NCBI GenBank assembly: GCA_019163375.1
Contig: JAFLKK010000004.1
Span: forward strand, 620,001-684,000
Direction of reading: 5' to 3'
Length of the DNA stretch: 64,000 nt
From: Paludibacter sp.
Lineage (GTDB): Bacteria > Bacteroidota > Bacteroidia > Bacteroidales > Paludibacteraceae
A program made the translations under genes and the position numbers. This document shows, piece by piece, positions 2,571 to 55,712 of the stretch. Below the pieces are notes generated by a model. The model did not search any database. It saw only the letters and a list, made by a program, of their open reading frames with translations, and was not told the DNA's origin. Every line of letters begins with the position of its first letter. The stretch's first letter is position 1.

Positions 2571-3019
2571 AATATTAAATTCTAAGTACTCGAATAAAAT
2601 GAGCTAAAAAGTTCAAAAACCTTGACAAAAAAGGAAATTGGGGATTGAAAAATCAAATAATGTCGCGTTATTTAGCTGTATACCGATGAGGTTGGGTAAA
2701 TCCAAACAAGAAAATTTAAACCACATAGGCACATAGATTCGGTTTATTTGGGATATACATAAAAACCAAAATGGAGCTTATTACCAATATAATAAAACGA
2801 AGTTTTATTTCTATGTGTTCTTTTCCCGGTTATGTAAAACACTTCAATAATGAAATTTTGTATGTGTCTATGTGATCTATGTGGTTCATTATCTCCTTTT
2901 AAACCACATAGGTTCGATTTATTGAAGATGCAGATAAAACATAAATCTAAGTGCTGAAAAATCTATTGATACTATTTGTCTTTTCTTCAAATCATCATAA
3001 AGCAGCAATGCACTCTTAA

Positions 3020-3035
3020 ACCCCCATTTGGGGGT
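3020..3035 (-). terminator. Short C/G hairpin after the sulfatase gene
   Basis: ACCCCC-ATTT-GGGGGT, 10 bp beyond the stop of the gene at 3045, preceded by ATGCACTCTTAAA. The same ATGCACTCTTAAA leader precedes another palindrome at 5207-5220 next to the neighbouring gene. It could be a terminator or a REP-like intergenic repeat. Confidence 0.45.
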
Positions 3036-3044
3036 AGGGGGTGA

Positions 3045-5264: not shown

Positions 5265-6218
5265 TCAATGATACCAGAACTCATCCTTTTGGCCTAACTG
5301 TCTGGTGGACGATGAGCGGGAAAAAATACGGCATTCAAGCATAATTTCGTGCGTGGTATTGAAAGTGTAACCGGTATTAAAGCTTTGGTTGTAAGCATAT
5401 CCCACCCTAAAATCATTAAATAGATTTATCCCGAACAGAAATGTCATTTGCTTGGAAGAACGATACGTCATCCCCAGATCGAAAAGCTCGCGTGGACCGG
5501 AACTTAAACCGGTGGCATGCTTAAACCGTATATTTGCACTTCCCTCCAATACCGTTAGGTTATTTCTGTTCACCATTTGCACACCCACATTGTAATTAAA
5601 TAGTTCAAGATTATTCTGTTTGTACATGGCATAAGCATAGCGGTGGTTCGAAGCCAGAAACAAATCCTCGGGTTTCATGATTGCAAATAAGTGAGTAGAC
5701 GAAGCTCCAAAAATAAAATGTGGCGACTGAATTTCAATCCCTATATTCGCGTCGGGTCGAATGATCCGATCCACTTCATAATTAATGGATGGATCATTAA
5801 TCTCTACCGGTTCGAACTGTGTACCGTCAAAATTACGCGAAAAAACGCCGGCCGACAAGCCCATCGATAGCGACCATTCTTTGCTGTTTTCTATTTTGAA
5901 GGCATAGGTAAGCATGGGGTTAATTACCTGCGAAACACCTATTTTATCGCTGACAAGTGAAATTCCAAAAGCAGAGTTGGTGCTTTGAAAAAACTGTGAA
6001 GCTTGGATGTTAATCACCAACGGACCACCACTCACTCCATTCCACTGGCTACGCACACTTGTGAACAGATATAAATAATTGGGGCGCGCTATAGCCGCGG
6101 GGTTGTAACTAGCCCTATTAAATGAATGGGTAATCATGCTGATATCCGACTGAGCAATAATAAAATTACTACTCAATAAATACAGCAGAATAAATAGAGT
6201 GAACTGTTTTAGCTTCAT
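5265..6218 (-). CDS. PorP/SprF family type IX secretion outer-membrane protein
   Basis: 317 residues with a signal peptide ending near FIIAQS and the family hallmark at the mature N-terminus, HSFNRASYNPAA followed by RSQWNGVSGGP. The remainder alternates amphipathic strands as expected of a beta-barrel of the PorP/SprF family. Such proteins are usually encoded beside large CHU_C (type B) cargo and are thought to hold that cargo at the cell surface after export by the type IX secretion system. The gene begins 7 bp after the stop of the CHU_C gene at 6226, so the two are almost certainly co-transcribed and co-functional. Confidence 0.92.
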   Translation of the reverse strand: MKLKQFTLFILLYLLSSNFIIAQSDISMITHSFNRASYNPAAIARPNYLYLFTSVRSQWNGVSGGPLVINIQASQFFQSTNSAFGISLVSDKIGVSQVINPMLTYAFKIENSKEWSLSMGLSAGVFSRNFDGTQFEPVEINDPSINYEVDRIIRPDANIGIEIQSPHFIFGASSTHLFAIMKPEDLFLASNHRYAYAMYKQNNLELFNYNVGVQMVNRNNLTVLEGSANIRFKHATGLSSGPRELFDLGMTYRSSKQMTFLFGINLFNDFRVGYAYNQSFNTGYTFNTTHEIMLECRIFSRSSSTRQLGQKDEFWYH

Positions 6219-6225
6219 TTTGGTA

Positions 6226-8346
6226 TTATCTTATCAAGGTAACAAATCCTTTTTTTGTATGCAATTGATTATTTATGTCGGTATAATTGGCAGTGTAAAA
6301 ATAGGAGTCGTTATCCATATTTCTTCCGTTATAGGTTCCATCCCAACCGGAATTTCCTTTGTATAAAACCAGTCCATTCCTATCGAAAACGAATAACTCC
6401 AGCCCCTCGAGCAAAAGATCATTTACCCCATCACCATTGGGTGTAAAGACATTCGGGAAAAAGGGAACAATTTCAATCTGCTGTGAACTAAAGTCTTCAC
6501 AACCGGCTATTGACTTTGCACGGAGGCTAATGGTATATTTCCCAATCTGACTTAAGTCGGTATATGTATGCGAAACCGGCGAGACTGATTCGGTATACAC
6601 CTCATTGTCGCCAAAGTTCCAGTAATATCGTGTGCCCTCCTCTTGCGGAATGGTACATGTCAACTGATTGTGTCGGCGATCGAGCGTTGCAGTCGATAAG
6701 GTAAAATCCACTTTTGGGAGTTTGTTTTCAATAATGTTTATGTCAATCGTCTTCTCGCATCCCCGCGGATTGGTTCCTGTAACCCGGTATATTCCGGGAG
6801 TCTTTACCGTAATCCTGTCGGTGGTTTTGTTGGTTGGGCTCCACTGATACTTTACAGCGCCCGAAGCAATCACAGTGAGACTATCAGATTCGCAATAAGA
6901 GCTCCCATCACTGACAGCAAACTCCCAATCCGGTTCTTCGTTTATTGTTTTGTATTTTTTTTCTGTAACGCAATTATTACTTGAATAGCCCAGCATCCAG
7001 TAGGTGCCGGCTTTGGATACGCTTAATGAATCGGCAGTAGATAAAACTTCCGCATCTTTCCCCCAGCTGTAATGATGCGCTCCATAGGCTTTCAATATTG
7101 CCGGATGGTTATCACAAAAGGTGCTGTCGCCGGTGATACCCACAAATGGAGGATTAAAAGTCTCAACCTGTTTACTCACTGAATCAAAACAGGTAGAGGG
7201 CGGGTTTTTTACTACCAGACTCACCGTATGCATTCCCGATGTTGAATACACGTGAGTAGGACTGGGAAGATTGGATTGTGTTCCATCGCCAAAATCCCAT
7301 TTGTATTCCAGATATCCATTCAGAGGAGCATGCAGATTCGAAAATTTTATTGAATTGGTATGCACGTTACAATCAACCAAATCATATTTAAAATCGGCAT
7401 TAGGCTCATATTTTATAATTTTGGAGGTTAGTGATACCGGGCAGCCGGTAGCTGAAACCATATCGCAAGCATAAGTTGCTCCTTCTTCGGGATTTGCCAA
7501 CGCTAATTCTTGTTTATCTCCCACCACCGCTCCTTTACCATCCTTCCAACTATAGGTTTCAAAACCGGTAGGTGCAGTAAGTGTTGCAGCTACATCATTC
7601 GAGCAAAATTTTACGGATATATAAAGTGGCTGGCATTCAGCAACAAGATAAGCATATCCAAAATGACCTGCCCGTCTGCAATTGGCAGTCATAAACTCGA
7701 TGGTTATTTTTTGCCCGATATATTTCGAGAGATCAACTCCCACCGCTGTCCAGTCGCGCCAAAACAACGTTTGAGTTCCGAAACTACCGGTATAAGAGCC
7801 TTGTTGCCAACCACCAATTCTGGCATCGGAGGCAAAAACATCATAATTGGCGCAATCGGGAATAATGTTTCCCGACTGATCGAGTATGGTAACTTTAAAC
7901 CGCGGTTCATCGATTACTTCGTGACTTGCATCATGCGGATCGAGCAAAACAACGGCGAAATGGTATACCAGAAATGCATTTTCTTTAGAGACATCTAAGG
8001 CGTATGTCAAACTCTGTCGCAATCCTCCGTTCCCAAGATAAGTAGAGCCTAATCGAGCAGAAGTGGCATACCCGGTTGGAATCACTTTTAGCTTCGTTCC
8101 TCCTACCACCGGATCATATCCGGTCGATGTGATTACGGTTTGCCTGTTCGCTTTTGTTCCAAATACTTTCGGTGTGGTTGGTATCGGAGTCCCCGGTTGT
8201 CCTTCGCTCCAGGTGTATCCTTCCCAATTAGTAAAATCGCCTAATTCAAAACCCAGATTCTGACAATAAGGATCTTTACCATAGGCCTTTGGTAGAGCTA
8301 TCAGTAAGAAAAAGAAACAAAAAAATATCCTTATTATTATTTTCAT
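6226..8346 (-). CDS. T9SS type B cargo protein with PKD domains (CHU_C)
   Basis: 706 residues. A signal peptide (to about residue 23) is followed by an N-terminal beta domain (FELGDFTNWEGYTW), then Ig/PKD-like repeats with WDFGDGTQ near residue 350 and YWNFGDN near residue 575. The C-terminal 80 residues are the gliding-motility-associated CHU_C sorting domain, starting FFPNVFTPNGDGVNDLL and ending KKGFVTLIR. The protein should be exported by the T9SS and retained through the PorP/SprF partner 7 bp downstream. It is a close paralogue of the gene at 8516 with the same domain order. The function is unknown; it is probably an adhesin or surface structural protein. Confidence 0.9.
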   Translation of the reverse strand: MKIIIRIFFCFFFLLIALPKAYGKDPYCQNLGFELGDFTNWEGYTWSEGQPGTPIPTTPKVFGTKANRQTVITSTGYDPVVGGTKLKVIPTGYATSARLGSTYLGNGGLRQSLTYALDVSKENAFLVYHFAVVLLDPHDASHEVIDEPRFKVTILDQSGNIIPDCANYDVFASDARIGGWQQGSYTGSFGTQTLFWRDWTAVGVDLSKYIGQKITIEFMTANCRRAGHFGYAYLVAECQPLYISVKFCSNDVAATLTAPTGFETYSWKDGKGAVVGDKQELALANPEEGATYACDMVSATGCPVSLTSKIIKYEPNADFKYDLVDCNVHTNSIKFSNLHAPLNGYLEYKWDFGDGTQSNLPSPTHVYSTSGMHTVSLVVKNPPSTCFDSVSKQVETFNPPFVGITGDSTFCDNHPAILKAYGAHHYSWGKDAEVLSTADSLSVSKAGTYWMLGYSSNNCVTEKKYKTINEEPDWEFAVSDGSSYCESDSLTVIASGAVKYQWSPTNKTTDRITVKTPGIYRVTGTNPRGCEKTIDINIIENKLPKVDFTLSTATLDRRHNQLTCTIPQEEGTRYYWNFGDNEVYTESVSPVSHTYTDLSQIGKYTISLRAKSIAGCEDFSSQQIEIVPFFPNVFTPNGDGVNDLLLEGLELFVFDRNGLVLYKGNSGWDGTYNGRNMDNDSYFYTANYTDINNQLHTKKGFVTLIR

Positions 8347-8515: not shown

Positions 8516-10645
8516 TTAGCGTAACAAGGTCACCGATCCTTTCTTTGTTTGTTGCTGATTATTTTTGTCGATATAACTTGCCGTATAAAAATAAGTGTCG
8601 CTATCCATGTCTTTACCATTATATTTTCCGTCCCAACCGGTATTCCCACTGTAAAGTAGCATTCCATTTCTGTCATAAATCAATATTTTGATGCCTTCCA
8701 TCAACAAATCATTTATACCATCTCCATTGGGTGTAAACACGTTGGGGAAGAATGGCACAATTTCTAACGACTTAACGGTCTCTGTGAAACAACCCACTGC
8801 ATTAGTCGCTTTAAGTGTAACTTTATATTCCAAATCAGCATTTAATACGCCACTGTATCGGTGCTGAATAATTGTACCTGTTTCGAAACTTCCATCTCCC
8901 ATCTCCCAGTTGTATTCAACATTGGGTTTCGGCCCTACCACGAAACATTTGAGTATGCTGCGCCTCGCATCAACCGAAGGGTTTAACATGATAAAGTTAG
9001 ATTCGGGAAGTGCCACCTCATCAATGTTTACACTAACAGACTGTTCACAGCCTATGGGACTTAAACCGGCCACTGTGTACAGACCGGGTTTCTTTACATA
9101 AATCGAACTCGTTGTCTCTCCGGTACTCCATTGGTAAGTTATTGCTCCCGAAGCTGTTAATTGGATGCTGTCACCATAACAAAAAGCTGTTGGCCCATCT
9201 ACAGTCAGTTGCCATTGGGGTTCTTCCCGTACCGATAATGGTATTTGAGCAACACAGCCGGAACTCGAATACCCTATCAGCCAAATATCTTCCGGAGTAT
9301 CTACCACCAGAGAATCGGCTATAGAAATAATCGCTCCATCTTTAAACCATTCGTACCTGTACGCTCCGTATGCTTTTAATGTCGTCTTTTTATTTGCACA
9401 GTAAAAACGGCTTCCGGTTGTTCCCACTAAATCGGATGAAAACGAATCAATCTCTTTTTGCAACATATCAACGCAGGAAGAGGGTGGGTTACTTACCTGT
9501 AAACTTACCTTGTGTACCCCGGAGGTGGTGTAAGTATGTATCGGGTTCTTATCGGTAGAAGTAGTTCCGTCGCCAAAATCCCAAAGATAGCTGAGCGTAC
9601 CTTTAGTTGTTGTAGATAAATCAGTAAACTGAACGCTGTTTGTATTACACCCAACCAGCGAACTAGTGAAATTAGCTTTAGGTACATATCGTTCGGTTTT
9701 AGCCTTCAACGCAACAGTACAGCCTGTTTCAGATGTCATATTACATGTAAATTCCTTACCCTCAGTCGGATTGGATATTGATAAATTTTGATTTGTACCT
9801 ACAATAATCCCTGAGTCATCAATCCATGAGTATTTAAAACCTGCCGGAGCAGTGAGTGTAGCATTCAAGTCAGCTTCGCAATAGTTGATGATAATATTTA
9901 ATGGATGACATTCTGCTACAAAATAAGCATAACCATAGTGCGCTCCCCGGGTACAATCTCCGGCCATAAATTCAATAGAAATGGTTTTCCCGATATAAGC
10001 TGAAAGGTCTGCGCCCACAGCAGTCCAATCACGCCAAAAAATAGGATTGGCCGTACCTCCGAATGGATAATAGGTTTGAAAATTATTGATTTTTGCATCA
10101 GAAGCATATACATCGTAATTGGAACAATTTTTAATTGTATCGCCTTTATCATCAAATAAAGTAACTTTAAAACGAGGCTCCTCAAATTTAGCATGCTTCG
10201 CTTTTGGTTCTTCTGTTTTTGGATCTTCCAGCACAACTGCAAATTTATATACCAGAAGTGCATTGCTTTGGTCTACTTTAAGCTTGTAAGACAAACTTTC
10301 CATTAATCCCCCCTTAATTACCACTCCATTTTTTACTTCTCCACCTAATTTGGCCGAATATTTTGAACCAGAAGGTATAATCTTGAGTTTTCTACCTGTA
10401 TTTGGGTCATAAGCATTCGTATCTGTCATTATGCTATGACGCCCATTGACAATGTTAGATATCTTAGGGCTGGTTAAATTGATATTCGCCGAATCGGTTC
10501 TCAGAACCCAGGTATATCCGGTCCAATTTGTAAAATTCCCCTGTTCAAATCCAATGTTCTGGCAAAAAAGATTGCTACTGTACGTAAACATTACAGCAAA
10601 GAAGAAAAAGAAATAATATAGAAAAAAAGACTTCTTTCTTTTCAT
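8516..10645 (-). CDS. T9SS type B cargo protein with PKD domains (CHU_C), paralogue
   Basis: 709 residues, collinear with the product of 6226: signal peptide, N-terminal FEQGNFTNWTGYTW domain, PKD repeats (LWDFGDGTT near residue 350, NWEMGDGSF near residue 590) and a C-terminal CHU_C domain with FFPNVFTPNGDGINDLL and final KKGSVTLLR. Divergence is substantial in the middle but the ends are strongly conserved, indicating an older tandem duplication. It may share the single PorP/SprF protein at 5265 as its surface anchor. Its own promoter candidate is at 10730-10737. I assign no binding or enzymatic activity. Confidence 0.9.
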   Translation of the reverse strand: MKRKKSFFLYYFFFFFAVMFTYSSNLFCQNIGFEQGNFTNWTGYTWVLRTDSANINLTSPKISNIVNGRHSIMTDTNAYDPNTGRKLKIIPSGSKYSAKLGGEVKNGVVIKGGLMESLSYKLKVDQSNALLVYKFAVVLEDPKTEEPKAKHAKFEEPRFKVTLFDDKGDTIKNCSNYDVYASDAKINNFQTYYPFGGTANPIFWRDWTAVGADLSAYIGKTISIEFMAGDCTRGAHYGYAYFVAECHPLNIIINYCEADLNATLTAPAGFKYSWIDDSGIIVGTNQNLSISNPTEGKEFTCNMTSETGCTVALKAKTERYVPKANFTSSLVGCNTNSVQFTDLSTTTKGTLSYLWDFGDGTTSTDKNPIHTYTTSGVHKVSLQVSNPPSSCVDMLQKEIDSFSSDLVGTTGSRFYCANKKTTLKAYGAYRYEWFKDGAIISIADSLVVDTPEDIWLIGYSSSGCVAQIPLSVREEPQWQLTVDGPTAFCYGDSIQLTASGAITYQWSTGETTSSIYVKKPGLYTVAGLSPIGCEQSVSVNIDEVALPESNFIMLNPSVDARRSILKCFVVGPKPNVEYNWEMGDGSFETGTIIQHRYSGVLNADLEYKVTLKATNAVGCFTETVKSLEIVPFFPNVFTPNGDGINDLLMEGIKILIYDRNGMLLYSGNTGWDGKYNGKDMDSDTYFYTASYIDKNNQQQTKKGSVTLLR

Positions 10646-10729
10646 AATTTAATCAATAGTCTGGCTATAGAGTCGAAATGGTGTAATCTCGGAAGTTAGG
10701 AAATAAATGAAACACTCAGCAATTAAAAG

Positions 10730-46389: not shown

Positions 46390-46468
46390 TGTCACAACTT
46401 TGTCACTATAACTACACAGAAGCATAACGATTTCGGAATATGCTTGTAACAATCCCCCTTTACTTTTG
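46390..46468 (+). promoter_or_regulatory. PHO-box-like promoter of the beta-helix lipoprotein gene
   Basis: Direct repeats TGTCAC at 46390 and 46401 (11 bp apart) and TGTAAC at 46445 (44 bp = 4 x 11 further), then the -7 element TACTTTTG at 46461, exactly 16 bp after the start of the last hexamer. The geometry is shared with three other promoters up to 50295. PhoB-type regulators bind 11-bp direct repeats of TGTCA; binding here is inferred. Confidence 0.6.
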
Positions 46469-46519
46469 CATTATAATTTTTGAAAGAAAAAAACCAAATT
46501 ATAAAACAAAAGAAAAAAG

Positions 46520-47917
46520 ATGAAAAAGATTTTTTTGAATTCAGTTGTTGCTTTAGCTGGCACAGCATTTCTATTTAGCTCATGCGATAGTAAAGACACA
46601 GAAATTGTAAAAGTTCCTACGTCAAAAGAAGTTATTATCAAAGCCGACATTACGGGTACCCGTAGTTTAGTAAAAGACTCTACTTATGTACTTCAGGGAC
46701 AAATCAATGTTTCGGGTACAATAAACATTGCTGCCGGAACAGTTATTAAAGGCGATAAAGTAACCAAAGGATGTTTAATCATTGTTCCCGGAGGTAAAAT
46801 AAATGCAGTAGGTACTGCTAGCAGCCCAATCGTATTTACTTCGGCTTTGGCTCCGGGATTACGTTCTGCCGGCGACTGGGGTGGTTTGGTAATTGTAGGA
46901 AAAGCTCCGGTAAATCAAACAACAGCTGTTGTGGAAGGATTAAGCCGCGAAGTAGCTTATGGAACTTCTGCTTTTGCAACTCGCGATGTTGCCGATAATT
47001 CAGGAACATTGAAATATGTGCGTATCGAATTTGCCGGTATATCATTACAACCCGACAAAGAAATCAATGGTTTGACCATGTGTGCAGTAGGTTCGGGTAC
47101 AACTATTGATCACGTACAAGTATCGTATTGTGGTGATGACTCTTTCGAATGGTTTGGCGGTAATGTAAACGCTAAATATCTGATTGCTTACTTAGGATTG
47201 GATGATGAGTTTGACACAGACTATGGTTACCAGGGTAGAGTGCAATTTGCATTGGGTGTACGCAATCCACGTGTAGGTGACGTTTCAACGTCTAACGGCT
47301 TTGAATCGGACAATGATGGTACAGGAACTACCGCGGCACCACAAACTGCACCGGTATTCTCGAACGTAACATTGATAGGCCCATGGAAAACCAAAGATGA
47401 TAAAAACGTAAGTGCTCTGTTTGGAGCAGGAATGCATATCCGTCGTAACAGTTCACTTTCTGCTTTCAACTCAGTATTTGCAGGTTGGAACACAGGATTA
47501 TTGCTTGATGCAACATCTACTTATGCAAATGCCACTGCCGGAACATTGGCTATTCAAAACTGTGCTTTAGTATCTTCGAAAGTAACAGCAGTTAATGGAG
47601 CCGGAATTACTGCACAAGTTGCTACTGATTTCTTCAACACTGCAGGATTCAATAATCAGATTATAGATACCAACGCTACTGCTAAGATTTTAAACTCATT
47701 CTACGATGCCAGCAAAACAGGAACAGCTGCTAACCCAACTTCTTTCTTGCCGGAAGCGGGTTCTCCACTTATTGCAGCAGGAGCCGGTGCATTTACACAT
47801 ACAAAATTAGCTGATGCGTTTTTCGACAAAACAGCGACCTACATGGGTGCTTTCGGAACTACCGACTGGACAAAAGAAGCATGGGTAAACTTTGACCCAC
47901 AAAACACAGTTTATTAA
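46520..47917 (+). CDS. Right-handed beta-helix lipoprotein
   Basis: 465 residues. Lipoprotein signal to Cys22 (FLFSSC). The mature part is built of short strand-turn repeats typical of right-handed beta-helices (INVSGTINIAAGTVIKGD, FTSALAPGLRSAGDWGGLVIVG, LKYVRIEFAGI, FEWFGGNVNAKYLIA), with conserved DWGG and DSFEWFGG motifs. I have seen this pattern in Bacteroidota surface lipoproteins encoded near TonB receptors, but I cannot assign a substrate. Its promoter has the same 11-bp-grid boxes as the response regulator and TonB receptor genes, suggesting a shared regulon, possibly for phosphate-related uptake. A strong terminator follows. Confidence 0.75.
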   Translation: MKKIFLNSVVALAGTAFLFSSCDSKDTEIVKVPTSKEVIIKADITGTRSLVKDSTYVLQGQINVSGTINIAAGTVIKGDKVTKGCLIIVPGGKINAVGTASSPIVFTSALAPGLRSAGDWGGLVIVGKAPVNQTTAVVEGLSREVAYGTSAFATRDVADNSGTLKYVRIEFAGISLQPDKEINGLTMCAVGSGTTIDHVQVSYCGDDSFEWFGGNVNAKYLIAYLGLDDEFDTDYGYQGRVQFALGVRNPRVGDVSTSNGFESDNDGTGTTAAPQTAPVFSNVTLIGPWKTKDDKNVSALFGAGMHIRRNSSLSAFNSVFAGWNTGLLLDATSTYANATAGTLAIQNCALVSSKVTAVNGAGITAQVATDFFNTAGFNNQIIDTNATAKILNSFYDASKTGTAANPTSFLPEAGSPLIAAGAGAFTHTKLADAFFDKTATYMGAFGTTDWTKEAWVNFDPQNTVY

Positions 47918-47950
47918 TTTCTTTCAATGATTTGAATTTAGTCAGGATGG

Positions 47951-47984
47951 AGAGAAGTTGCGGTGACGTAACTTCTCTTTTTTT
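47951..47984 (+). terminator. Terminator of the beta-helix lipoprotein gene
   Basis: AGAGAAGTTGCG-GTGA-CGTAACTTCTCT followed by six Ts; one mismatch in a 12-bp stem. Confidence 0.9.
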
Positions 47985-48150
47985 ACCTGAGCGAAATTTT
48001 GTAATACATATTAAATTATTAAGCACGTACAACTTGCAATTTAAACTTATTACTCTGTTATAATGTGGTTTACACATCGATAGCATATTGAATAGGGGAG
48101 GCGTAGAGCTTTGCTGATGAGGAGGATGTATATTCATTGGAAATAAGTAC

Positions 48151-48158
48151 TATTTTTG
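48151..48158 (+). promoter_or_regulatory. Promoter of the YwqK-like gene
   Basis: TATTTTTG, 38 bp upstream of the start at 48196. No TGTMAY hexamer lies 16 bp upstream, so this promoter is not part of the 11-bp-grid set. Confidence 0.5.
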
Positions 48159-48195
48159 TGAATAGCTTAAGTTGTCACTTAAAATAATCAACATT

Positions 48196-48672
48196 ATGAG
48201 AAAAATAATCATCGCATTATTCGTTTTATTGGGTGTTCAGTTTTCATTATTGGCGCAAAACGGAAAGATCATCCAAAGTGACGGTCTGTTTTTTACAGAT
48301 AATACCCAAACAAAGTTGTATACCGGAGAATATAAAGAGTATTTCCCCGATGGATCTATCAAAGTAGAGATATACATAAAAAACGGAAAGCCGGAAGGAG
48401 CTTACATTGTTTATTTTCCCAATGGAAAGCCAAATGAGGTGCGGGCATACCTGAATGGGGAGTTTCATGGGGTGTGGCGGACGTATAACGAGGCCGGAAT
48501 GCTGGTTGCGCAAGCTGAGTATCGCAACAATAAAAAACACGGTACGTGGCATGTCTGGGACGATTCGGGCATTATGCGTTACGAGATGGAATATGCCAAC
48601 GGAAAAAAAACAGGCACATGGTATATGTGGGATGAAAAAGGGAAACTGATTTCGGAGAAAAAATATGAGTGA
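48196..48672 (+). CDS. YwqK/MORN-repeat secreted protein
   Basis: 158 residues: signal peptide ending near FSLLAQ, then five tandem MORN-variant repeats of about 23 residues with the motif Y-x-G-x-x-x-x-Y-F-x-x-G (YKEYFPDGSIKVEIYIKNGK; YMWDEKGKLI). Such proteins are labelled toxin-antitoxin system YwqK family antitoxin in databases, but the repeat is a general beta-hairpin and there is no toxin gene beside it, so I would not call this a toxin-antitoxin gene. The start at 48196 is chosen for the signal peptide. Confidence 0.75.
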   Translation: MRKIIIALFVLLGVQFSLLAQNGKIIQSDGLFFTDNTQTKLYTGEYKEYFPDGSIKVEIYIKNGKPEGAYIVYFPNGKPNEVRAYLNGEFHGVWRTYNEAGMLVAQAEYRNNKKHGTWHVWDDSGIMRYEMEYANGKKTGTWYMWDEKGKLISEKKYE

Positions 48673-48701
48673 TATTGATTGAAACATAATCTTCACGAGA
48701 T

Positions 48702-48747
48702 TGTATATTCTTTGTAATCAATCTGTAATAGTTTTAGTATTACTTTG
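48702..48747 (+). promoter_or_regulatory. PHO-box-like promoter of the small domain protein
   Basis: TGTATA at 48702, TGTAAT at 48713 and TGTAAT at 48724, each 11 bp apart, then the -7-like TTACTTTG at 48740, 16 bp after the last hexamer start. This is the cleanest example of the shared geometry. Confidence 0.65.
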
Positions 48748-48791
48748 CACTGTAATTAAAAGGCAAAAGTAAACTAACAAAATATACAGTT

Positions 48792-49136
48792 ATGAAAAAG
48801 GTATTGTTCCTATCAGTTATCGCATTGTTGTTCATCTCAATGAATGTATCGGCATCCAAAAGCCCGGCTCCGGCACCAAAGGTTGAAGTGCAAAACCAGA
48901 CTACAGTTTTGAAAGGACTGATTTCTGACAACCTGACTAACGAAACACTTGCCGGTGCGGTAGTTACTGCAAACGGTCAGAAAGTATACAGTGACTTGGA
49001 TGGTAATTTCTCAATCAATAATTTGTGCGAAGGTAAATGCCAACTAAAGATCAGCCTTATATCCTACGAAGATCAGGTGCTTGAGGTAGATTTGCAAAGC
49101 GCAAAAACTCTTGAGATTAAGCTTCAACAAAGATAA
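48792..49136 (+). CDS. Small secreted CarboxypepD_reg-like domain protein
   Basis: 114 residues: signal peptide ending near NVSASK, a Pro/Ala-rich linker, and a single carboxypeptidase-regulatory-like beta-sandwich (about 40-114; VLKGLISDNLTNETLAGAVV, SDLDGNFSINNL). The domain resembles the N-terminal extension of TonB receptors such as that at 50323 but stands alone. With the 11-bp-grid promoter it is probably co-regulated with the receptor and could act as a periplasmic partner; that role is inference. A terminator with a 16-bp stem follows. Confidence 0.75.
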   Translation: MKKVLFLSVIALLFISMNVSASKSPAPAPKVEVQNQTTVLKGLISDNLTNETLAGAVVTANGQKVYSDLDGNFSINNLCEGKCQLKISLISYEDQVLEVDLQSAKTLEIKLQQR

Positions 49137-49180
49137 ACGTTACCACATCGTTTCAAATTTTTCCACAAAATCATACTAAG

Positions 49181-49216
49181 TAAGAGAGGCAAGTCCGTAT
49201 GGATTTGCCTCTCTTA
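49181..49216 (+). terminator. Terminator of the small domain protein gene
   Basis: TAAGAGAGGCAAGTCC-GTAT-GGATTTGCCTCTCTTA, a 16-bp stem with one G-U pair. Confidence 0.85.
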
Positions 49217-49262
49217 TTTATTTCTATTGATAACAAGAAAAAAATGTGAATCATCACTGATT

Positions 49263-49308
49263 TGTAATAATCATCACATAATTCTGTAATACGAATATCG
49301 TTACTTTG
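49263..49308 (+). promoter_or_regulatory. PHO-box-like promoter of the response regulator gene
   Basis: TGTAAT at 49263, TCACAT at 49274 and TGTAAT at 49285 (11-bp steps), then TTACTTTG at 49301, 16 bp after the last hexamer start. It implies autoregulation of the regulator downstream. Confidence 0.65.
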
Positions 49309-49407
49309 ATGAATATTTATTATTTATCAATTAATCTGCTGTTTGTGAATCCAATCTCCTTAAAACAGACAAGTTACGAATTATCAATTTCTAACAGTCA
49401 AATAGTT

Positions 49408-50094
49408 ATGAGTCCTTATCGAATTTTAGTAGTAGACGATGAAGAAGATCTGTGTGAGATTCTTCAATTCAATTTAGAAATAGAAGGTTACCTTGTAGAT
49501 GTAGCCTACTCGGCCGAAGAAGCATTAAAAAAGGATTTATCGATATACAACCTCCTGTTGTTGGATGTGATGATGGGTGAAATTTCGGGATTCAGAATGG
49601 CACGCGCCGTACGCGAGGATGCCAGAACCGAACATATCCCTATCGTTTTTCTAACCGCTAAGGATAGCGAAAACGACCGGCTGACCGGTTTTAGTCTGGG
49701 AGCCGATGATTATATCAACAAACCCTTTTCTATCCGCGAAGTAATTGCGCGTATAAAAGCAGTCATTCGCAGGGCGGAGTCGTCCAAAGAAAAAGAGGTG
49801 GAAAGCCTTAGTTACGAAACGCTGGAAATGCAGCTCAACAATAAGAAAGTGTTGGTCGACAATAACGAAGTGGCATTTACCCGCAAAGAATACGAGATCT
49901 TGAAATTGTTTTTAGAGAACAAGAACCGTTTGTTTACACGTGATGAGATTCTTGTACGTATATGGTCCAATGAAGTGATAGTGCTGGACCGAACGATAGA
50001 TGTAAACATCACCCGCCTGCGTAAGAAAATTGGGCGGTACGAAAAGAATATCGTTACCCGACTTGGTTATGGCTATTGTTTCGAAGATAAATAA
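49408..50094 (+). CDS. OmpR/PhoB-family response regulator
   Basis: 228 residues. Receiver domain 1-120 with acidic pocket Asp10/Asp11, phospho-acceptor Asp53 (LLLDVMMG), Thr83 (FLTAKDS) and Lys105 (YINKPFS). A winged-helix DNA-binding domain (about 135-228) ends RLGYGYCFEDK, the OmpR/PhoB class. No sensor kinase gene is adjacent. The start MSPYRILVVDD at 49408 is the only one giving a normal receiver; the open frame extends 34 codons upstream into the leader. Its own promoter and three neighbours carry the 11-bp direct repeats typical of PhoB-class sites, so it is probably the local regulator. PhoB identity itself is unproven. Confidence 0.92.
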   Translation: MSPYRILVVDDEEDLCEILQFNLEIEGYLVDVAYSAEEALKKDLSIYNLLLLDVMMGEISGFRMARAVREDARTEHIPIVFLTAKDSENDRLTGFSLGADDYINKPFSIREVIARIKAVIRRAESSKEKEVESLSYETLEMQLNNKKVLVDNNEVAFTRKEYEILKLFLENKNRLFTRDEILVRIWSNEVIVLDRTIDVNITRLRKKIGRYEKNIVTRLGYGYCFEDK

Positions 50095-50108
50095 GAGACA
50101 AAACTGAC

Positions 50109-50148
50109 CCAAAAAGGAGGATAAACAAGTGTTTATTCTCCTTTTTGG
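50109..50148 (+). terminator. Terminator of the response regulator gene
   Basis: CCAAAAAGGAG-G-ATAAAC-AAGT-GTTTAT-T-CTCCTTTTTGG, a long stem with one mismatch, 15 bp after the stop. Confidence 0.85.
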
Positions 50149-50238
50149 CATTTAAACCCTACCCACGGCAGAGCTAACTGTACATTTGAAAATTGATACT
50201 GGGACTAATAGTTTCAAATATCACTGTCAATTACATTC

Positions 50239-50295
50239 AGTAACCTTATTGTCATACGCTTTTATCCCTTTTGAAACAGGTATGTCTTATTTTTG
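50239..50295 (+). promoter_or_regulatory. PHO-box-like promoter of the TonB receptor gene
   Basis: AGTAAC at 50239, TGTCAT at 50250 and TGAAAC at 50272 lie on one 11-bp grid, then TATTTTTG at 50288, again 16 bp after the last hexamer start. Another TGTCAA at 50225 is off the grid by 3 bp. It is weaker than the other three members. Confidence 0.5.
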
Positions 50296-50322: not shown

Positions 50323-53124
50323 ATGAAAAATCGACTATTATTTCGCAGTATTACTTTAGTCTGCACGCTGTTTCTGTCATTAGCCTTGCAGGCTCAGGTT
50401 TCAATTCAGGGACACGTTACCGATAAACGGACGAACGAACCACTCACAGGAGCAGCCATCATGGTAGAAGGCACCAGCAAAGGCACTACCGCCGACATCG
50501 ACGGAAATTATAAAATCTCGGGACTGGCACCGGGAAAGTATAGCCTGACGGTAAGCTATGTATCGTACAATAAACAACGTGTAGCCAACGTAACTGTGGC
50601 AGGTGCTGCAACTACCATTCAGGATATTGCGATGGAAGAAGCCGGACTGGCTCTTAATGCAGTACAAGTGGTGGCGCAACGCCGAACCGACACGGAGTTA
50701 TCTATGCTAAAAAGTGTACGTACTTCATTACAGGTGGTGAGTGGCATTTCGTCTCAACAAATAGGCAAAACACTTGACCGCGATGCCTCCGAGGTTGTAA
50801 AGCGTGTGCCGGGCGTAACAATTCAGGACAATCGTTTTATTGTGGTGCGCGGACTCAACCAACGGTACAATAATGTATGGCTCAACAATGCTGCCACACC
50901 CAGTAGCGAAACGGATGTAAAAGCCTTCTCGTTCGATGCCATTCCGAGCAGTATGATTGATAATCTATTGATATATAAGAGCGGTTCGCCCGAACTGCCT
51001 GCCGAAGCAACAGGTGGTTTCATAAAAATATCGACCAAGAACATTCCAGATGAGAATTTCTTAACTATGGAGTACGGTATTGGTTACAACGATCAGACTA
51101 CATTCAAAGACAGCTATCATTTGCCCTCCAAACCGCTTGACTTTCTCGGTCTGGGAAGTGGTGCACGTTCTGTTCCCGGAAACTTTCCGGCTAATTTAAA
51201 CACACTAACTGCCGCTCAAAGCGATGCAGCTGCCTTGCAATTGAAATCCAACTGGGTGGCTCAACCGTCTATGGCACTGCCCAATCAGAAACTCGCTATT
51301 GCCTTTGGAAAAAAATGGGCATTGAACAATGGTGCTAAGTTAGGTACTATTACTTCGCTGAACTACAGCAACAATTACAGCACCCGCTCCAACATGGACA
51401 ACAACACCTATGAGCGGTACGACGCAACTACTGAAACACCGACTTACCTTTATAAAGACAAAGTGAATGTATACAGCAACGATTTCAAGGTAGGATTGAT
51501 GCACAACTGGGCGTATCAAACCAAAGGGGGTACATTGTATGAATTTAAAAACATCTTTAATCAGATAGGAGGCGACAAAACCGCCAATACAGAAGGGTTG
51601 AACACTTATCGTCAAGGTAACTTCAGGTATTTCACTAATCAGTATTCCAGTCGCACTACCTATTCGGGTCAACTGAGTGGGAAACATGCTTTGTCCGATA
51701 AAATTGAGTCTAAACTGGACTGGAACATGGGCTTTGCTTATGCCAACCGCATAGAGCCGGATCGCCAAAACCGGAGCATGAAACAAAACGCCGCCGGTAA
51801 TTATGAGTATATGTTGCCAATAGTGGCAAGTATTAATGAATTGGGCAGACTTTATCTGAGCAACAACGAGAATGTAAGCACTGCCGCTCTCAATTACGAA
51901 CAAAAACTATCCATTCTCAATGTAAAATCAACCCTTAAGGCCGGTGGTTATGCCGAATATAAAACGCGTAATTATGCTGAGCGGAGCCTTTCTTACCGTA
52001 AACTCGACTCCGGATTTTTGAGTGACGATGAAATAAATGCTTTGCCATTCGAATCGCTCTTTACCGAACAATACATGGGACAGAATAAAGTGATTGCCAT
52101 TGTGGAGCAAACCGATGTAGCTAATAAATACAATGCAAGTAATTTACTGTCGGCAGGTTATGTTTCGCTTAACTTACCCCTTGGAGCATTCAATATCTAT
52201 GGTGGACTGCGGGGAGAATACAATCGCCTGACCCTGGATGGCTACCGTGATGCGAATACGCCTGTGGCTATAGATGTTCCAACCTTCAATTTGTTTCCGT
52301 CAGTAAATATTTCGTACAACCTTACTCCTAAGAGTTTACTGCGCTTTGCCTATGCAAGCACTATCAATCGTCCTGAATTTCGGGAGGTGTCGCCACTGAG
52401 CTATTATGATTTTACAGAAAAATACTCGGTGAAAGGAAATCCTGCGCTGAAAGATGCAATGATACAAAACCTCGACCTACGTTTCGAACACTACCCTACG
52501 CCTAACGAAACATTCTCGCTAGCGGCTTTCTACAAGCACTTTACTAATCCGATTGAAATGGTGAGTGTGGGTGCAGGATCCGATTTCTCGTTCGAAAATG
52601 CAGTAGGAGCTACCAACTACGGTTTGGAGTTGGAAGTGAAAAAATCGTTGGAAACAATGATTGGGCTGCGTAACTTTAGTGTAAGCCTCAACGCCTCGTA
52701 TATCTTCAGCGAAGTGCAGTTTGCCAACTCAATGTCGGAACGCAGTCGTCCACTTCAGGGTCAGTCGCCCTTTGTAGTGAATACCTCACTTTTTTATCAA
52801 AATGATAAACTTGGACTTTCCTCGTCGCTGATGTACAATGTGATGGGTAAACGTATTCTGGTAGCTGCCGAGCTTAATCAGGGTGAGGTAGTACAACCCG
52901 ACATCTACGAAATGTCCCGCCACGTGCTCGACTTTTCACTCAATAAAAAAGTAGGAAAACATATGGAACTCAAACTAGGTATTAAAGATATGTTGGCACA
53001 AAACTATGTAACCCAACAAACCTACGAATACAAAAAAGAGGGTGTGTCTAAATCGGCTACGCTCAATAACAAAACCTACAACCTTGGACGCACATGGACC
53101 GTAGGTGCAAGTTGGAAGTTTTAA
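50323..53124 (+). CDS. TonB-dependent outer-membrane receptor
   Basis: 933 residues. Signal peptide (to ALQAQ), a CarboxypepD_reg-like domain (about 26-105; IQGHVTDKRTNEPLTGAAIMVEG), a plug domain (about 115-235; VVKRVPGVTIQDNRFIVVRGLNQRYN) and a 22-strand-type barrel ending RTWTVGASWKF with the C-terminal Phe. There is no SusD gene beside it, so it is a single-component receptor rather than a glycan-type SusCD pair. The ligand is unknown. The promoter boxes and the neighbouring regulator suggest induction under a phosphate-like starvation signal, an inference. It shares a perfect bidirectional terminator with the GH9 gene. Confidence 0.9.
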   Translation: MKNRLLFRSITLVCTLFLSLALQAQVSIQGHVTDKRTNEPLTGAAIMVEGTSKGTTADIDGNYKISGLAPGKYSLTVSYVSYNKQRVANVTVAGAATTIQDIAMEEAGLALNAVQVVAQRRTDTELSMLKSVRTSLQVVSGISSQQIGKTLDRDASEVVKRVPGVTIQDNRFIVVRGLNQRYNNVWLNNAATPSSETDVKAFSFDAIPSSMIDNLLIYKSGSPELPAEATGGFIKISTKNIPDENFLTMEYGIGYNDQTTFKDSYHLPSKPLDFLGLGSGARSVPGNFPANLNTLTAAQSDAAALQLKSNWVAQPSMALPNQKLAIAFGKKWALNNGAKLGTITSLNYSNNYSTRSNMDNNTYERYDATTETPTYLYKDKVNVYSNDFKVGLMHNWAYQTKGGTLYEFKNIFNQIGGDKTANTEGLNTYRQGNFRYFTNQYSSRTTYSGQLSGKHALSDKIESKLDWNMGFAYANRIEPDRQNRSMKQNAAGNYEYMLPIVASINELGRLYLSNNENVSTAALNYEQKLSILNVKSTLKAGGYAEYKTRNYAERSLSYRKLDSGFLSDDEINALPFESLFTEQYMGQNKVIAIVEQTDVANKYNASNLLSAGYVSLNLPLGAFNIYGGLRGEYNRLTLDGYRDANTPVAIDVPTFNLFPSVNISYNLTPKSLLRFAYASTINRPEFREVSPLSYYDFTEKYSVKGNPALKDAMIQNLDLRFEHYPTPNETFSLAAFYKHFTNPIEMVSVGAGSDFSFENAVGATNYGLELEVKKSLETMIGLRNFSVSLNASYIFSEVQFANSMSERSRPLQGQSPFVVNTSLFYQNDKLGLSSSLMYNVMGKRILVAAELNQGEVVQPDIYEMSRHVLDFSLNKKVGKHMELKLGIKDMLAQNYVTQQTYEYKKEGVSKSATLNNKTYNLGRTWTVGASWKF

Positions 53125-53184
53125 GCCATAGTGAAACAAAGATAAGTCTTTAGAGGGTAGAAAAATATTCTAAATTCTAAAATT

Positions 53185-53221
53185 AAACAGGAGCTAAATC
53201 ACTTGGATTTAGCTCCTGTTT
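53185..53221. terminator. Bidirectional terminator, TonB receptor / GH9
   Basis: AAACAGGAGCTAAATC and its exact reverse complement around a 5-nt loop ACTTG; a 16-bp perfect stem between convergent genes. Confidence 0.92.
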
Positions 53222-53228
53222 GAAACTT

Positions 53229-55712
53229 TTATTTTAGAACTTCTTTGGCAGCTAATACGATAAACAAGAAGTCAGTTGTGCCGCCGCCCAACACATACTC
53301 TGTTTGTTGCCAGAAATAAGGCCATTCTTTCAATTCGGGAAAATCGGGACGAATAATGCCTGTGCCGGAAACCGAACCTCCCGGAATAAATGAACGATCG
53401 GCTCTATTGACGCCATAGGCCTGCAACACCGAACGCGATCCTACTCCCGAAACAAAAGAAGAAGTGTTCTCGCCCGGATGATTTCCAAGTACAAAATTCA
53501 ATGCGTTGAGTAAATAGTTGGAATTGTATATTTCAGGAAAACCTTTCAAAAGAAAATACTGATTCACTGCAAAATTCTGAATATTCCAACCATCACCCCA
53601 AATATATGGATGATAAGGCACCCCAAACGGATTTTCACTTTGAATTTTATCAACCTCAGCTTTATAGTTTTTAGCAGCGGTCACTACTATAGCGCTAAGT
53701 TTTTTATCGTTTATTTTGGTGAGAACCCGCCCTAAATAGCCAACGAGTTCACTCTTTTTTAACACCTCAGCAGTTGTATATTTCAGGATGTCCTGTTTGT
53801 ATTTCGAATCGCTGGTAGTCAGATACAATTCCACTGCTGCTCCAATTTTATTGGCAGATAATTGTTGAGTACTACTTCCCGCAATGCGGTCGTACAATGC
53901 TATGGCAGTGGACAGAGATTGAGTAGATAAGGTGTCGTTAAATCCTTTTAATGCCCGGGCAGCAGTTGCCAATGCCCCTGCTACTTCCAATTCGCGTCGG
54001 GGATTCTCCTCGGTAAATACCAACCTGTCATCCAATTTACCCGACTCAGTGGCTGTAACTTCAACATCCTTCAACGCCGGATTGTATTTCCGTCCATCGG
54101 TTATGGTAGCCGCATCTCCTAAATGAACATACTGACGAATGTTATTTTCGATAATACCACGGTACAAACGCCCCATGCTTTGATAACCCGCCAGAATAGA
54201 GATGACACCATGTTCAACTTGTTGGAGTAGGTCGTTTTTACCATCCGGACGATGGATTTCAACAATAAGATTCTTTTGATCAATGGTTGTCTGATCCCAA
54301 TCGGGGTGAAATAACTCATAGGCTTGCGACAGTCCCCAAACGGTTCCTGCCTGTGATTCAACTCGCAAGTCGTAATCACCTGCATCGTGCCATCCTCCGC
54401 GATTTAAACCGGGCACCTGTTCGTACGGTTTAAATTTAGTAAGCGTAGAAGGACCTTGTGCATAACCATCAAAATGAATGGTATCAACCGGTGCCATCAG
54501 TGCATCGTCCATGTGGCACAGGCCATGCCATACACGGTAACCTTCGTTGATGCGCATATGACACATTTGTACCGGAAGAAAGTATTCGAGGGTAGGTTGC
54601 CACACATTTCGGTCGTAAATAGTACTGGCTATTCGAAAAGGTTCGGTAATGTTTCCGGCATAACGAATCTGATACATGCCGGGAGTTGTAATATCCGAAA
54701 AATCGAAACGGTAATAATTGAACCGTAGAAACTTTCCCCATTTCTGAGGCTCGGCAGTACGAATTTCCTTCAAACCGCCATTTTCGGAGATACGATACAA
54801 ACTTACGTTGGCTACTGTTTGGGTATTTTTATCCACTTCAATAGTAGCTATTTTTTGTTGATTGGGATGATAACCTATCTGGCTAACATGCACTACCGGT
54901 TTCGTTTGGAAATTCTTCAACACATTACAATCAACCACCCATTCAATGGCTCCTTTTGTTTTGCCGGGTGTTACCAGTGAGCGAACAACGAACCAACCGT
55001 TGTTGTGATAAAAACGTCCATCGAGCAATTGCAAAGGCTGTCCTTTACTTTCAATCACCATGGATTGTTCTGCAACTTCAGGCGCAATGCTGAGTTTCTG
55101 CCCAATAGCCTGAGGGAAAGCCTGCCAGGCTCCATCAATATCTTTTTCCATAGCACCATTGGCTTGCGTGGGAAAGATTCCCGACTGCTCATCGAGGTAC
55201 CAGCTTTTTCCAAACAAAATAGCGGGAAACAGTTCAAAATTAAACCCTACTTTCTTTTCCCAATCCGCAGGTAGTGCTTTGTCTAGATCAACTAAAATTC
55301 GGAATTTATTGCCATCTGCAACTACTCGCACCTGATAAGTAAAGTTCAAATCAGGATACTCTATCGGGTTGAAGCCTTTGCGGTGTAAGTTTGAGTCGGG
55401 ATAGGCACAGCTTACGCCGATTTCATTTTTCAAGGTGTCAACCGTTCGTTTTCCCACTTTGGGAATCGGTTGCCATTGTCCGGGCGTAGGTTCCAACCGC
55501 AAATCGCCGTTGGTAGCTACGCGAACTCCATTCTGAATAATTCCCACTCCGCCCTGATGACCTTCAGGATAGATGTCTAAAAAAACCATTACATTCAAAC
55601 CCGGTTTTTCAAAATATCCGGTTTCATTTATTTGGAGCGATTGAGCCGATACCTTCGTTGGCATAAAAAGGATGGCAATAAGAAAAGTGAAGAGTGTGAT
55701 GTTGGATTTCAT
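53229..55712 (-). CDS. Glycoside hydrolase family 9 (cellulase-like), exported
   Basis: 827 residues. A signal peptide (to about residue 24) precedes an N-terminal beta domain of about 240 residues not recognised here, a CelD_N Ig-like domain (about 271-362; VVHVSQIGYHPNQQKIA), and the GH9 (alpha/alpha)6 domain from about 370. Catalytic aspartates lie in RGGWHDAGDYD (Asp443, Asp446), and the acid Glu near residue 805 in TEYVLGGG. GH9 enzymes cleave beta-1,4-glucans by inversion. No CHU_C or dockerin is visible, so it is probably periplasmic or exported by another route. No SusCD pair is adjacent. A -7 candidate is at 55814. Confidence 0.9.
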   Translation of the reverse strand: MKSNITLFTFLIAILFMPTKVSAQSLQINETGYFEKPGLNVMVFLDIYPEGHQGGVGIIQNGVRVATNGDLRLEPTPGQWQPIPKVGKRTVDTLKNEIGVSCAYPDSNLHRKGFNPIEYPDLNFTYQVRVVADGNKFRILVDLDKALPADWEKKVGFNFELFPAILFGKSWYLDEQSGIFPTQANGAMEKDIDGAWQAFPQAIGQKLSIAPEVAEQSMVIESKGQPLQLLDGRFYHNNGWFVVRSLVTPGKTKGAIEWVVDCNVLKNFQTKPVVHVSQIGYHPNQQKIATIEVDKNTQTVANVSLYRISENGGLKEIRTAEPQKWGKFLRFNYYRFDFSDITTPGMYQIRYAGNITEPFRIASTIYDRNVWQPTLEYFLPVQMCHMRINEGYRVWHGLCHMDDALMAPVDTIHFDGYAQGPSTLTKFKPYEQVPGLNRGGWHDAGDYDLRVESQAGTVWGLSQAYELFHPDWDQTTIDQKNLIVEIHRPDGKNDLLQQVEHGVISILAGYQSMGRLYRGIIENNIRQYVHLGDAATITDGRKYNPALKDVEVTATESGKLDDRLVFTEENPRRELEVAGALATAARALKGFNDTLSTQSLSTAIALYDRIAGSSTQQLSANKIGAAVELYLTTSDSKYKQDILKYTTAEVLKKSELVGYLGRVLTKINDKKLSAIVVTAAKNYKAEVDKIQSENPFGVPYHPYIWGDGWNIQNFAVNQYFLLKGFPEIYNSNYLLNALNFVLGNHPGENTSSFVSGVGSRSVLQAYGVNRADRSFIPGGSVSGTGIIRPDFPELKEWPYFWQQTEYVLGGGTTDFLFIVLAAKEVLK

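Follow-up and report, generated by a model that had tools for sequence, protein, structure and literature searches.

A 64,000-nt stretch of DNA from a Paludibacter relative (GenBank assembly GCA_019163375.1, contig JAFLKK010000004.1, positions 620,001 to 684,000; hereafter the window) contains four neighbouring genes whose promoters share a grid of TGTMAY-like hexamers spaced 11 bp apart. The genes encode a beta-helix lipoprotein, a small secreted protein, a PhoB-family response regulator that we call PhoB2, and a TonB-dependent receptor. Judged from the sequence, these are very probably PHO-box promoters of a phosphate-starvation regulon, and phosphate limitation is their likely signal. They would form a PhoB-type phosphate-starvation switch arranged as in E. 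coli. What is new here is the explicit geometry of a PHO box at a Bacteroidota core promoter, together with an orphan PhoB2. Several features can be read directly from the DNA: a grid of hexamers with a set spacing, the return of this grid in relatives and in front of pst and polyphosphate genes, and a recognition-helix stretch shared by two PhoBs.

All four promoters lie on the + strand. The lipoprotein promoter (46390..46468) has hexamers at 46390, 46401, 46412, 46423, 46434 and 46445 and the -7 element TACTTTTG at 46461-46468. The small-protein promoter (48691..48747) has boxes at 48691, 48702, 48713 and 48724 and TTACTTTG at 48740, and the same element TTACTTTG stands at 49301 in the phoB2 promoter (49252..49308), after boxes at 49252, 49263, 49274 and 49285. 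At the TonB receptor promoter (50239..50295) the boxes are at 50239, 50250, 50261 and 50272, and TATTTTTG is at 50288. The last hexamer (TGTAAC at 46445, TGTAAT at 48724 and 49285, TGAAAC at 50272) begins 16 bp upstream of the -7 element in 4 of 4 promoters, exactly at the coordinates that the original prediction had given. Hexamers also occur at -27, -38 and -49 in each promoter, making four half-sites, and the lipoprotein promoter has extra ones at -60 and -71 (TGTCAC, at 46401 and 46390), for a total of six. Individually, the boxes vary between perfect (TGTAAT, TGTCAT) and weak (CGGAAT, TCACAT, TTTATC). Because several of them are weak, it is the sum over the grid that matters and not any one hexamer. 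The sites share with PHO boxes the 11-bp direct repeats of a TGTCA-like half-site, a location before phosphate genes of the same genome and, as in E. coli, a constant distance to the core promoter.

We scored the sites with a box matrix trained on 14 sites (56 boxes) that precede Pho genes of other genomes, with the window excluded. Because the grid model itself guided the choice of training sites, and orthologues are among them, the ranking tests transfer of the model, not blind discovery. Among the 221 TWNNTTTG sites on both strands of the window, the small-protein, TonB, phoB2 and lipoprotein promoters ranked 1 to 4 with scores of 19.6, 19.2, 18.5 and 12.7, and the fifth-ranked site scored -4.5. 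The best score in 100 first-order Markov copies of the window was 9.2, and 0 of 100 reached 12.66. We then compared periods of 9-13 with offsets of 12-20 (45 combinations). Period 11 with offset 16 gave 4 sites scoring at least 10, and the other 44 combinations peaked at 4.9. Over distances of 8-84, the mean box score of the four window sites alone is positive only at 16, 27, 38 and 49. Across 11 sites of this genome, five of which had been picked by the matrix, these four distances are again the only ones with a positive mean single-box score.

The grid recurs elsewhere in the genome. A four-box pattern followed by the -7 element, designed after viewing those 11 sites, gave 15 genome matches and 0 in a backward control. 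All four window promoters are among the 15, the lipoprotein promoter being counted in two registers. Other matches precede ppk-ppx, an HD protein gene, phoB1, pstC, porin-pstS and a metallophosphatase gene. Further matches lie before a gene of the exo/endonuclease-phosphatase family (sphingomyelin phosphodiesterase-like but below the cut-off, 82 vs 248 bits), another Metallophos-like gene that falls just below the Pfam cut-off, and a TonB/SusC-like gene. The match at C1:174803, upstream of what by eye is a family 1 glycosidase-like gene, is unexplained and may be chance. The 16-bp offset was also found at the pstC, porin-pstS, phoB1, ppk, HD, metallophosphatase and second TonB sites. With the grid before pst, phoB1, ppk-ppx and the metallophosphatase gene, the phosphate limitation that had been suggested for the four promoters gains support from the same genome. 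At a second TonB-lipoprotein-phosphatase locus (C1:274-294 kb), a grid site stands in front of the TonB gene. This locus lies in a second phosphate island (L107, G000 C1:274001-294000) that contains several PHO grid sites and encodes an HD protein, ppx-ppk, a metallophosphatase, a glycosyltransferase-like protein, a CHAD protein, a TonB receptor, a beta-helix lipoprotein and a calcineurin-like phosphatase. The island's lipoprotein (L107:16242) matches Beta_helix (PF13229).

We compared this geometry with that of E. coli K-12. There, half-sites start 16 bp upstream of TATAGT at phoA (TGTCAC), CATAAT at phoB (TGTCAT) and TATTTT at pstS (TGTCAC), hexamers that we take to be the -10 elements. The geometry is therefore common to both, although the -7 consensus differs. 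The E. coli PHO box likewise consists of 11-bp head-to-tail TGTCAy half-sites, an 11-nt repeat defined in a Pho review (PMC4415409; this and the papers below are cited from the excerpts available to us). In contrast, the half-site in the window reads TGTMAY, where position 4 is often A and position 1 sometimes C; TWnnTTTG of the Bacteroidota serves as the core element, and there are usually four half-sites. E. coli spacing is kept despite the different core element, and for this part of the Bacteroidota the result is a testable PHO-box code: TGTMAY every 11 bp, with the last box 16 bp before TWnnTTTG.

PhoB2 scored 352.1 bits on the Bacteroides PhoB model NF053854 (cut-off 270), which confirms that an OmpR/PhoB-type regulator gene lies within the cluster. 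This score, and the same grid and 16-bp offset before pstC, porin-pstS, phoB1, ppk-ppx and the metallophosphatase gene, also uphold the proposal that the boxes are of the PhoB class. Elsewhere in the genome, phoB1 lies in pstCAB-phoU-phoB-phoR, facing porin-pstS. It matches NF053854 as well, and its phoR reached 808 bits on NF053855 (cut-off 500). PhoB2 is 79% identical to the phoB1 product, and the recognition-helix stretch VLDRTIDVNITRLRKKIG is identical in both. D10, D11, D53, T83 and K105 are all present in PhoB2; we take these to be the phosphorylation residues, and the role of the recognition helix is assumed in the same way. No phoR or other kinase gene adjoins phoB2 in the window. Because phoR adjoins phoB1 and not the window regulator, we classify the latter as an orphan PhoB paralogue and not as the genome's PhoB. 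The autoregulated regulon of the original prediction is plausible, but the regulator is an orphan paralogue and a phoB-phoR pair with the same helix stretch lies elsewhere. Either PhoB1 or PhoB2, or both, may act at the cluster promoters.

Phosphorylated PhoB would most likely bind the four head-to-tail 11-bp half-sites, and up to six at the lipoprotein promoter. The last half-site would be the contact for RNA polymerase, placed before the Bacteroidota -7 element at the same 16-bp offset as in E. coli. Binding would switch on an outer-membrane set for scavenging phosphate or organophosphate, made up of the TonB receptor, the beta-helix surface lipoprotein and the small carboxypeptidase-regulatory-like protein. 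PhoB2, the second PhoB without an adjoining kinase gene, would be among the products switched on and may amplify or tune the response through the same boxes. PhoB binding, the phosphate response and the transported substrate are what we infer from these features. The PHO code directs a TonB receptor and a lipoprotein of otherwise unclear substrate toward phosphate scavenging.

We next consider conservation in relatives. In chosen sets of orthologous promoters, boxes were more alike than spacers, a contrast that is partly built in since the sites were picked by box score. Likeness of boxes and spacers was 0.91 vs 0.68 for phoB (12 rows), 0.75 vs 0.42 for PhoB2 (9 of 15 copies), 0.76 vs 0.36 for the small protein (8), 0.78 vs 0.47 for TonB (4) and 0.62 vs 0.36 for the lipoprotein (5). 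The phoB set omitted L290 and L295, which have no grid, and L296. In the lipoprotein set the relaxed rule chose another register for the window and L136 had too little upstream DNA; in the small-protein set a different register was taken for L285. When the strict rule is applied, the lipoprotein promoter of the window agrees box by box with those of L167, L279 and L285, CTACAC/CATAAC/CGGAAT/TGTAAC becoming TTACAC/CATAAT/CGGAAC/TGTAAY. Similarly, the weak TGTATA before the small protein recurs in L167, L279, L282 and L136. Such promoter-specific weak boxes are more telling than the contrast between boxes and spacers, because the matrix does not favour them. TonB orthologues in L130, L133 and L136 have similar upstream sites.

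Gene neighbourhoods in relatives also connect the cluster with phoB-phoR. L124 has TonB-lipoprotein-MORN-small protein-phoB-phoR in a row, L136 has lipoprotein-MORN-small protein-phoB-phoR, and L120 has MORN-small protein-phoB-phoR. One contig of L118 carries pst-phoU-phoB-phoR plus MORN-lipoprotein-TonB, and in L130 a TonB copy 72% identical to that of the window shares a contig with pst-phoU-phoB-phoR. Altogether, L118, L120, L124, L136, L172, L196 and L203 have cluster-like genes next to phoB-phoR or at most about 10 kb away. A TonB receptor and a beta-helix-class lipoprotein are linked to phoB in the window, and within about 10 kb in L118, L124, L136, L196 and L203.

Published systems resemble parts of this arrangement. 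By gene content, the cluster is similar to PUSIV of Flavobacterium johnsoniae (Fjoh_0541-0549), where a phoBR-linked TonB receptor (pf07715, pf13715, pf14905) and a lipoprotein of the pectin-lyase-fold class are induced by phosphate depletion (PMC8115612). Both have phoB linked to a TonB receptor and a lipoprotein, a likeness judged at the level of gene content. The F. johnsoniae phoB has its phoR, whereas phoB2 of the window has none and is accompanied by MORN and small-protein genes. The excerpted PUSIV paper states no promoter motif. In Bacteroides fragilis, a phosphate regulator of the same order, PhoRB (BF1575/BF1576), includes a PhoB that is required for pstC expression at low phosphate (PMC3547664). 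Its phoR and phoB locus tags are neighbouring, unlike the situation of phoB2, and the available text describes neither a PHO-box sequence nor an orphan paralogue. ElpS of Caulobacter crescentus is a phosphate-starvation lipoprotein that co-occurs with the TonB receptor CC0171 (PMC2996285); as described there, it differs in belonging to another phylum and being tied to type II secretion. Pho boxes have been predicted near plcP in marine bacteria, with no sequence given in the excerpt (PMC4796936). Riemerella anatipestifer PhoP is a Bacteroidota regulator of the PhoP/PhoB type that responds to phosphate and binds its own promoter. DAP-seq gave 583 peaks and the motif TTTAACA, and the excerpt describes no TGTMAY grid (PMC9603813). 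This was the sole stated Bacteroidota motif that we found; the excerpts of open-access literature searched yielded no TGTMAY-type PHO box and no orphan PhoB paralogue for this phylum.

Several results, in addition to the retrospective design of the four-box pattern, weigh against a PHO-box code as described here. TTTAACA is not obviously the same motif as the window grid (PMC9603813, in the part available). Short patterns came close to their backward controls: TGTMAY-N5-TGTMAY gave 17 genome matches vs 12, TGTMAY-N10-TWNNTTTG gave 28 vs 17, and two boxes plus the -7 element with at most 3 mismatches gave 225 vs 203. A genome scan with such patterns had been proposed at the outset, and sites do occur before pst, phosphatase and TonB genes, but the simple patterns discriminate poorly. 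We rejected patterns of two hexamers, or of one hexamer and the -7 element, as too weak and replaced them with the matrix and four-box scans. Of 80 named Bacteroidales loci, 20 have a strict grid before phoB; in this count a locus with no recognised phoB ORF or -7 element is a miss, and the contig L159 had also supplied a training site. A phoB grid universal to Bacteroidales is not supported. Of 412 genes without a match in the reference set, 21 score as high, and these may include Pho genes. Across the order, with at most 1 mismatch, 12 of 80 genomes gave 23 matches, this genome accounting for 6. The backward control gave 9, which all fall in one genome, G111, probably in a repeat array, and the forward matches in G102, G112 and G135 look like tandem repeats. 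Two of the ten first phoB copies in the genus comparison below (L290 and L295) have no grid, which is present at the other 8. TTTG at -33 is found at 0 of 11 PHO sites, a result that is uninformative: just 3 of 38 -7-like sites, some of which are these PHO sites, have it. For this reason its loss was rejected as a sign of activator dependence. The exact PHO code is strongest within and near this genus.

We then characterized PhoB2 across the genus. PhoB over the cut-off occurs in 46 of 48 genomes, and 14 of the 48 have two or more copies. It was in these 14 that orphan status was examined. No phoR was seen beside any of their 15 second copies, of which L285 lies on a contig that ends inside the gene, where phoR is possible, and L280 and L286 show about 1 kb downstream. 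Fourteen of the 15, the window copy included, have a grid score of at least 11.6; the second copy in L112 has no grid under the strict -7 rule. Eight of the ten first copies show phoR, which in L293 stands behind a small opposite-strand ORF, next to a phoB with an internal stop. The two without a visible phoR are L296 (short contig) and L297 (contig edge). Second copies can be seen at a common location after glnS in 4 of the 14 genomes (the window, L111, L279 and L288). A loss of phoR beside phoB2, like the direction of any move to the pst operon, is something that we infer.

The phosphorylation residues vary among the second copies. D10, D11, D53, T83 and K105 are kept in 23 of 23 rows not classed as PhoB2 (15 PhoB1, 3 cluster and 5 other rows; L134 and L296 lack a visible phoR and L297 is cut off). 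The PhoB2 type comprises 16 rows, the 15 second copies and L233, which is below the cut-off. D53 is lost in 4 of the 16, as Glu in L284, L286 and L233 and as Gly in L288; without L233, the phospho-acceptor Asp is absent in 3 of 15 second copies. Position 11 of the acidic pocket is altered in 5 of 16 (L284, L286, L288, L233 and L112). In the copies that lack Asp53 the recognition-helix stretch is largely intact, and a PHO grid precedes three of the four (L233 was not scored). A free tree scatters PhoB2, with 4 changes for 15 rows. Constraining PhoB2 to a single clade was not rejected (p-AU 0.65, 16 rows; an earlier 6-row test gave p 0.25). A single resolved origin therefore has no tree support, though one clade is not rejected. 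The series from intact to Asp-less PhoB2 is a natural experiment in a regulator paralogue that may escape its kinase yet retain its operator.

Other features of these copies were observed in passing. Directly downstream of PhoB2, L111, L112, L167, L279, L281, L284 and L288 carry a patatin-like gene, as does L233 by eye; in L283 this gene is one ORF further downstream. This neighbour suggests phospholipid use or remodelling under phosphate stress. One TonB-lipoprotein cluster, in L167, holds two PhoB-like genes without phoR (3010-3696 and 10001-10684), the first with an altered recognition-helix stretch, GTIDRNINQ. L134 encodes a PhoB 80% identical to phoB1 (5741-6484) with no adjoining phoR. 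It is the one over-cut-off copy in its genome, lies beside cytochrome oxidase-like genes and has no strict PHO grid; in the residue and tree comparisons it was grouped among the phoR-linked rows.

It is quite possible, if short of probable, that PhoB2 represents a recurrent second PhoB of the genus that has no PhoR, is driven by PHO boxes, reads the boxes of PhoB1, is phosphorylation-independent in some lineages and forms a two-regulator cascade. If so, phosphorylated PhoB1 would turn on a self-sustaining or damping PhoB2 and thereby set the strength or memory of phosphate scavenging. Alternatively, PhoB2 could be a brake or buffer, competing with PhoB1 at PHO boxes or diverting phosphoryl groups away from PhoR, so that it sets a threshold instead of amplifying the response. 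The loss of the phospho-acceptor Asp from 4 of 16 copies that largely keep the recognition-helix stretch, and the change at position 11 in 5 of 16, would suit such a role, and sequestration by non-cognate regulators has been described in mycobacteria (PMC10368727, excerpt). However, the window PhoB2 retains its phosphorylation residues and may therefore be a normal activator, and we consider a brake rather unlikely. Less likely again is that PhoB2 alone, and not PhoB1-PhoR, governs the cluster as a local regulon with its own signal, the boxes being alike through the same DNA-binding helices. The phoB2 gene does lie inside the cluster with its own grid, and RYE follows the recognition helix in the window PhoB2, L111 and L167_3010; in phoR-linked copies this place is mostly PYG. 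Yet PhoB1 and PhoB2 of this genome have the same recognition-helix stretch, the cluster boxes resemble those of pstC, phoB1 and ppk, and in L120, L124 and L136 such genes adjoin the genome's only over-cut-off phoB with its phoR.

Two further explanations set PhoB aside. Direct repeats of 11 bp are common to OmpR/PhoB-family regulators, and a different OmpR-family member, ArcA- or RprY-like, might use the grid with phosphate not being the signal. NF053854 has 39 matches in the genome at E<=0.001, and the Riemerella PhoP motif has been compared to that of ArcA (PMC9603813, excerpt). Such a regulator is nonetheless very improbable, given that the sites cluster upstream of pst, phoB, ppk-ppx, phosphatase and TonB-phosphatase genes and that four boxes are common to the twelve chosen phoB promoters. 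That the hexamers are simply a product of AT-rich promoters agrees with the near-control counts of the short patterns, but it is scarcely credible beside the matrix ranking, which no simulated window matched, the four-box scan (15 vs 0) and the spacing test.

The genes behind these promoters all lie on the + strand. The lipoprotein (46520..47917, 465 aa) is a right-handed beta-helix by model (pLDDT 72.7) and has no Pfam match. The best solved match of the model is pectate lyase Pel9A (1ru4; E 8e-4, TM 0.29-0.32), and with a match this weak (TM about 0.3) we do not claim an enzyme activity from the fold. Its context recalls that of FII, a low-phosphate lipoprotein of F. johnsoniae. A MORN_2-repeat protein (48196..48672, 158 aa, PF07661) follows. 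Its gene has no grid site of its own among the best of the 221 -7-like sites in the window; in one relative, L280, the upstream grid score is 13.5. The small secreted protein (48792..49136, 114 aa) has one CarboxypepD_reg-like domain (PF13715). PhoB2 (49408..50094, 228 aa, 352 bits on NF053854) is followed by the TonB-dependent receptor (50323..53124, 933 aa; PF00593, PF07715 and, as an N-terminal CarboxypepD_reg-like domain, PF13715). The receptor covers the whole of TIGR01782 (TonB-Xanth-Caul) at a score below the cut-off (213.6 vs 310 bits).

Terminator-like hairpins follow glnS and the lipoprotein (47949..47980, +), small-protein (49177..49220, +) and TonB (53183..53223, +) genes. The stretch has 11 such hairpins on both strands, vs 6.1 in shuffles. 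An inverted repeat with 19-nt arms 3' of phoB2 (50109..50148, +) is a possible terminator that is not on this list. Most of the four genes are therefore probably transcribed separately, and this would account for the PHO promoter in front of each. A family 9 glycoside hydrolase gene (53229-55712) with a CelD_N domain by Pfam runs convergently to the TonB gene and has no site among the best-scoring window sites.

Two minor observations come from elsewhere in the scans. A TGTAAC-rich intergenic stretch occurs in two copies with the same two flanking genes (L008 and L015; G000 C5:116610 and C10:167650); these are perhaps mobile-element iterons and account for 2 of the 17 two-box matches. Finally, L108 holds tandem 131-aa ORFs (809-1201 and 1420-1812) that are identical over the first 90 residues, the part compared. 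They lie near the PHO-like site C1:60536, which precedes a third gene.

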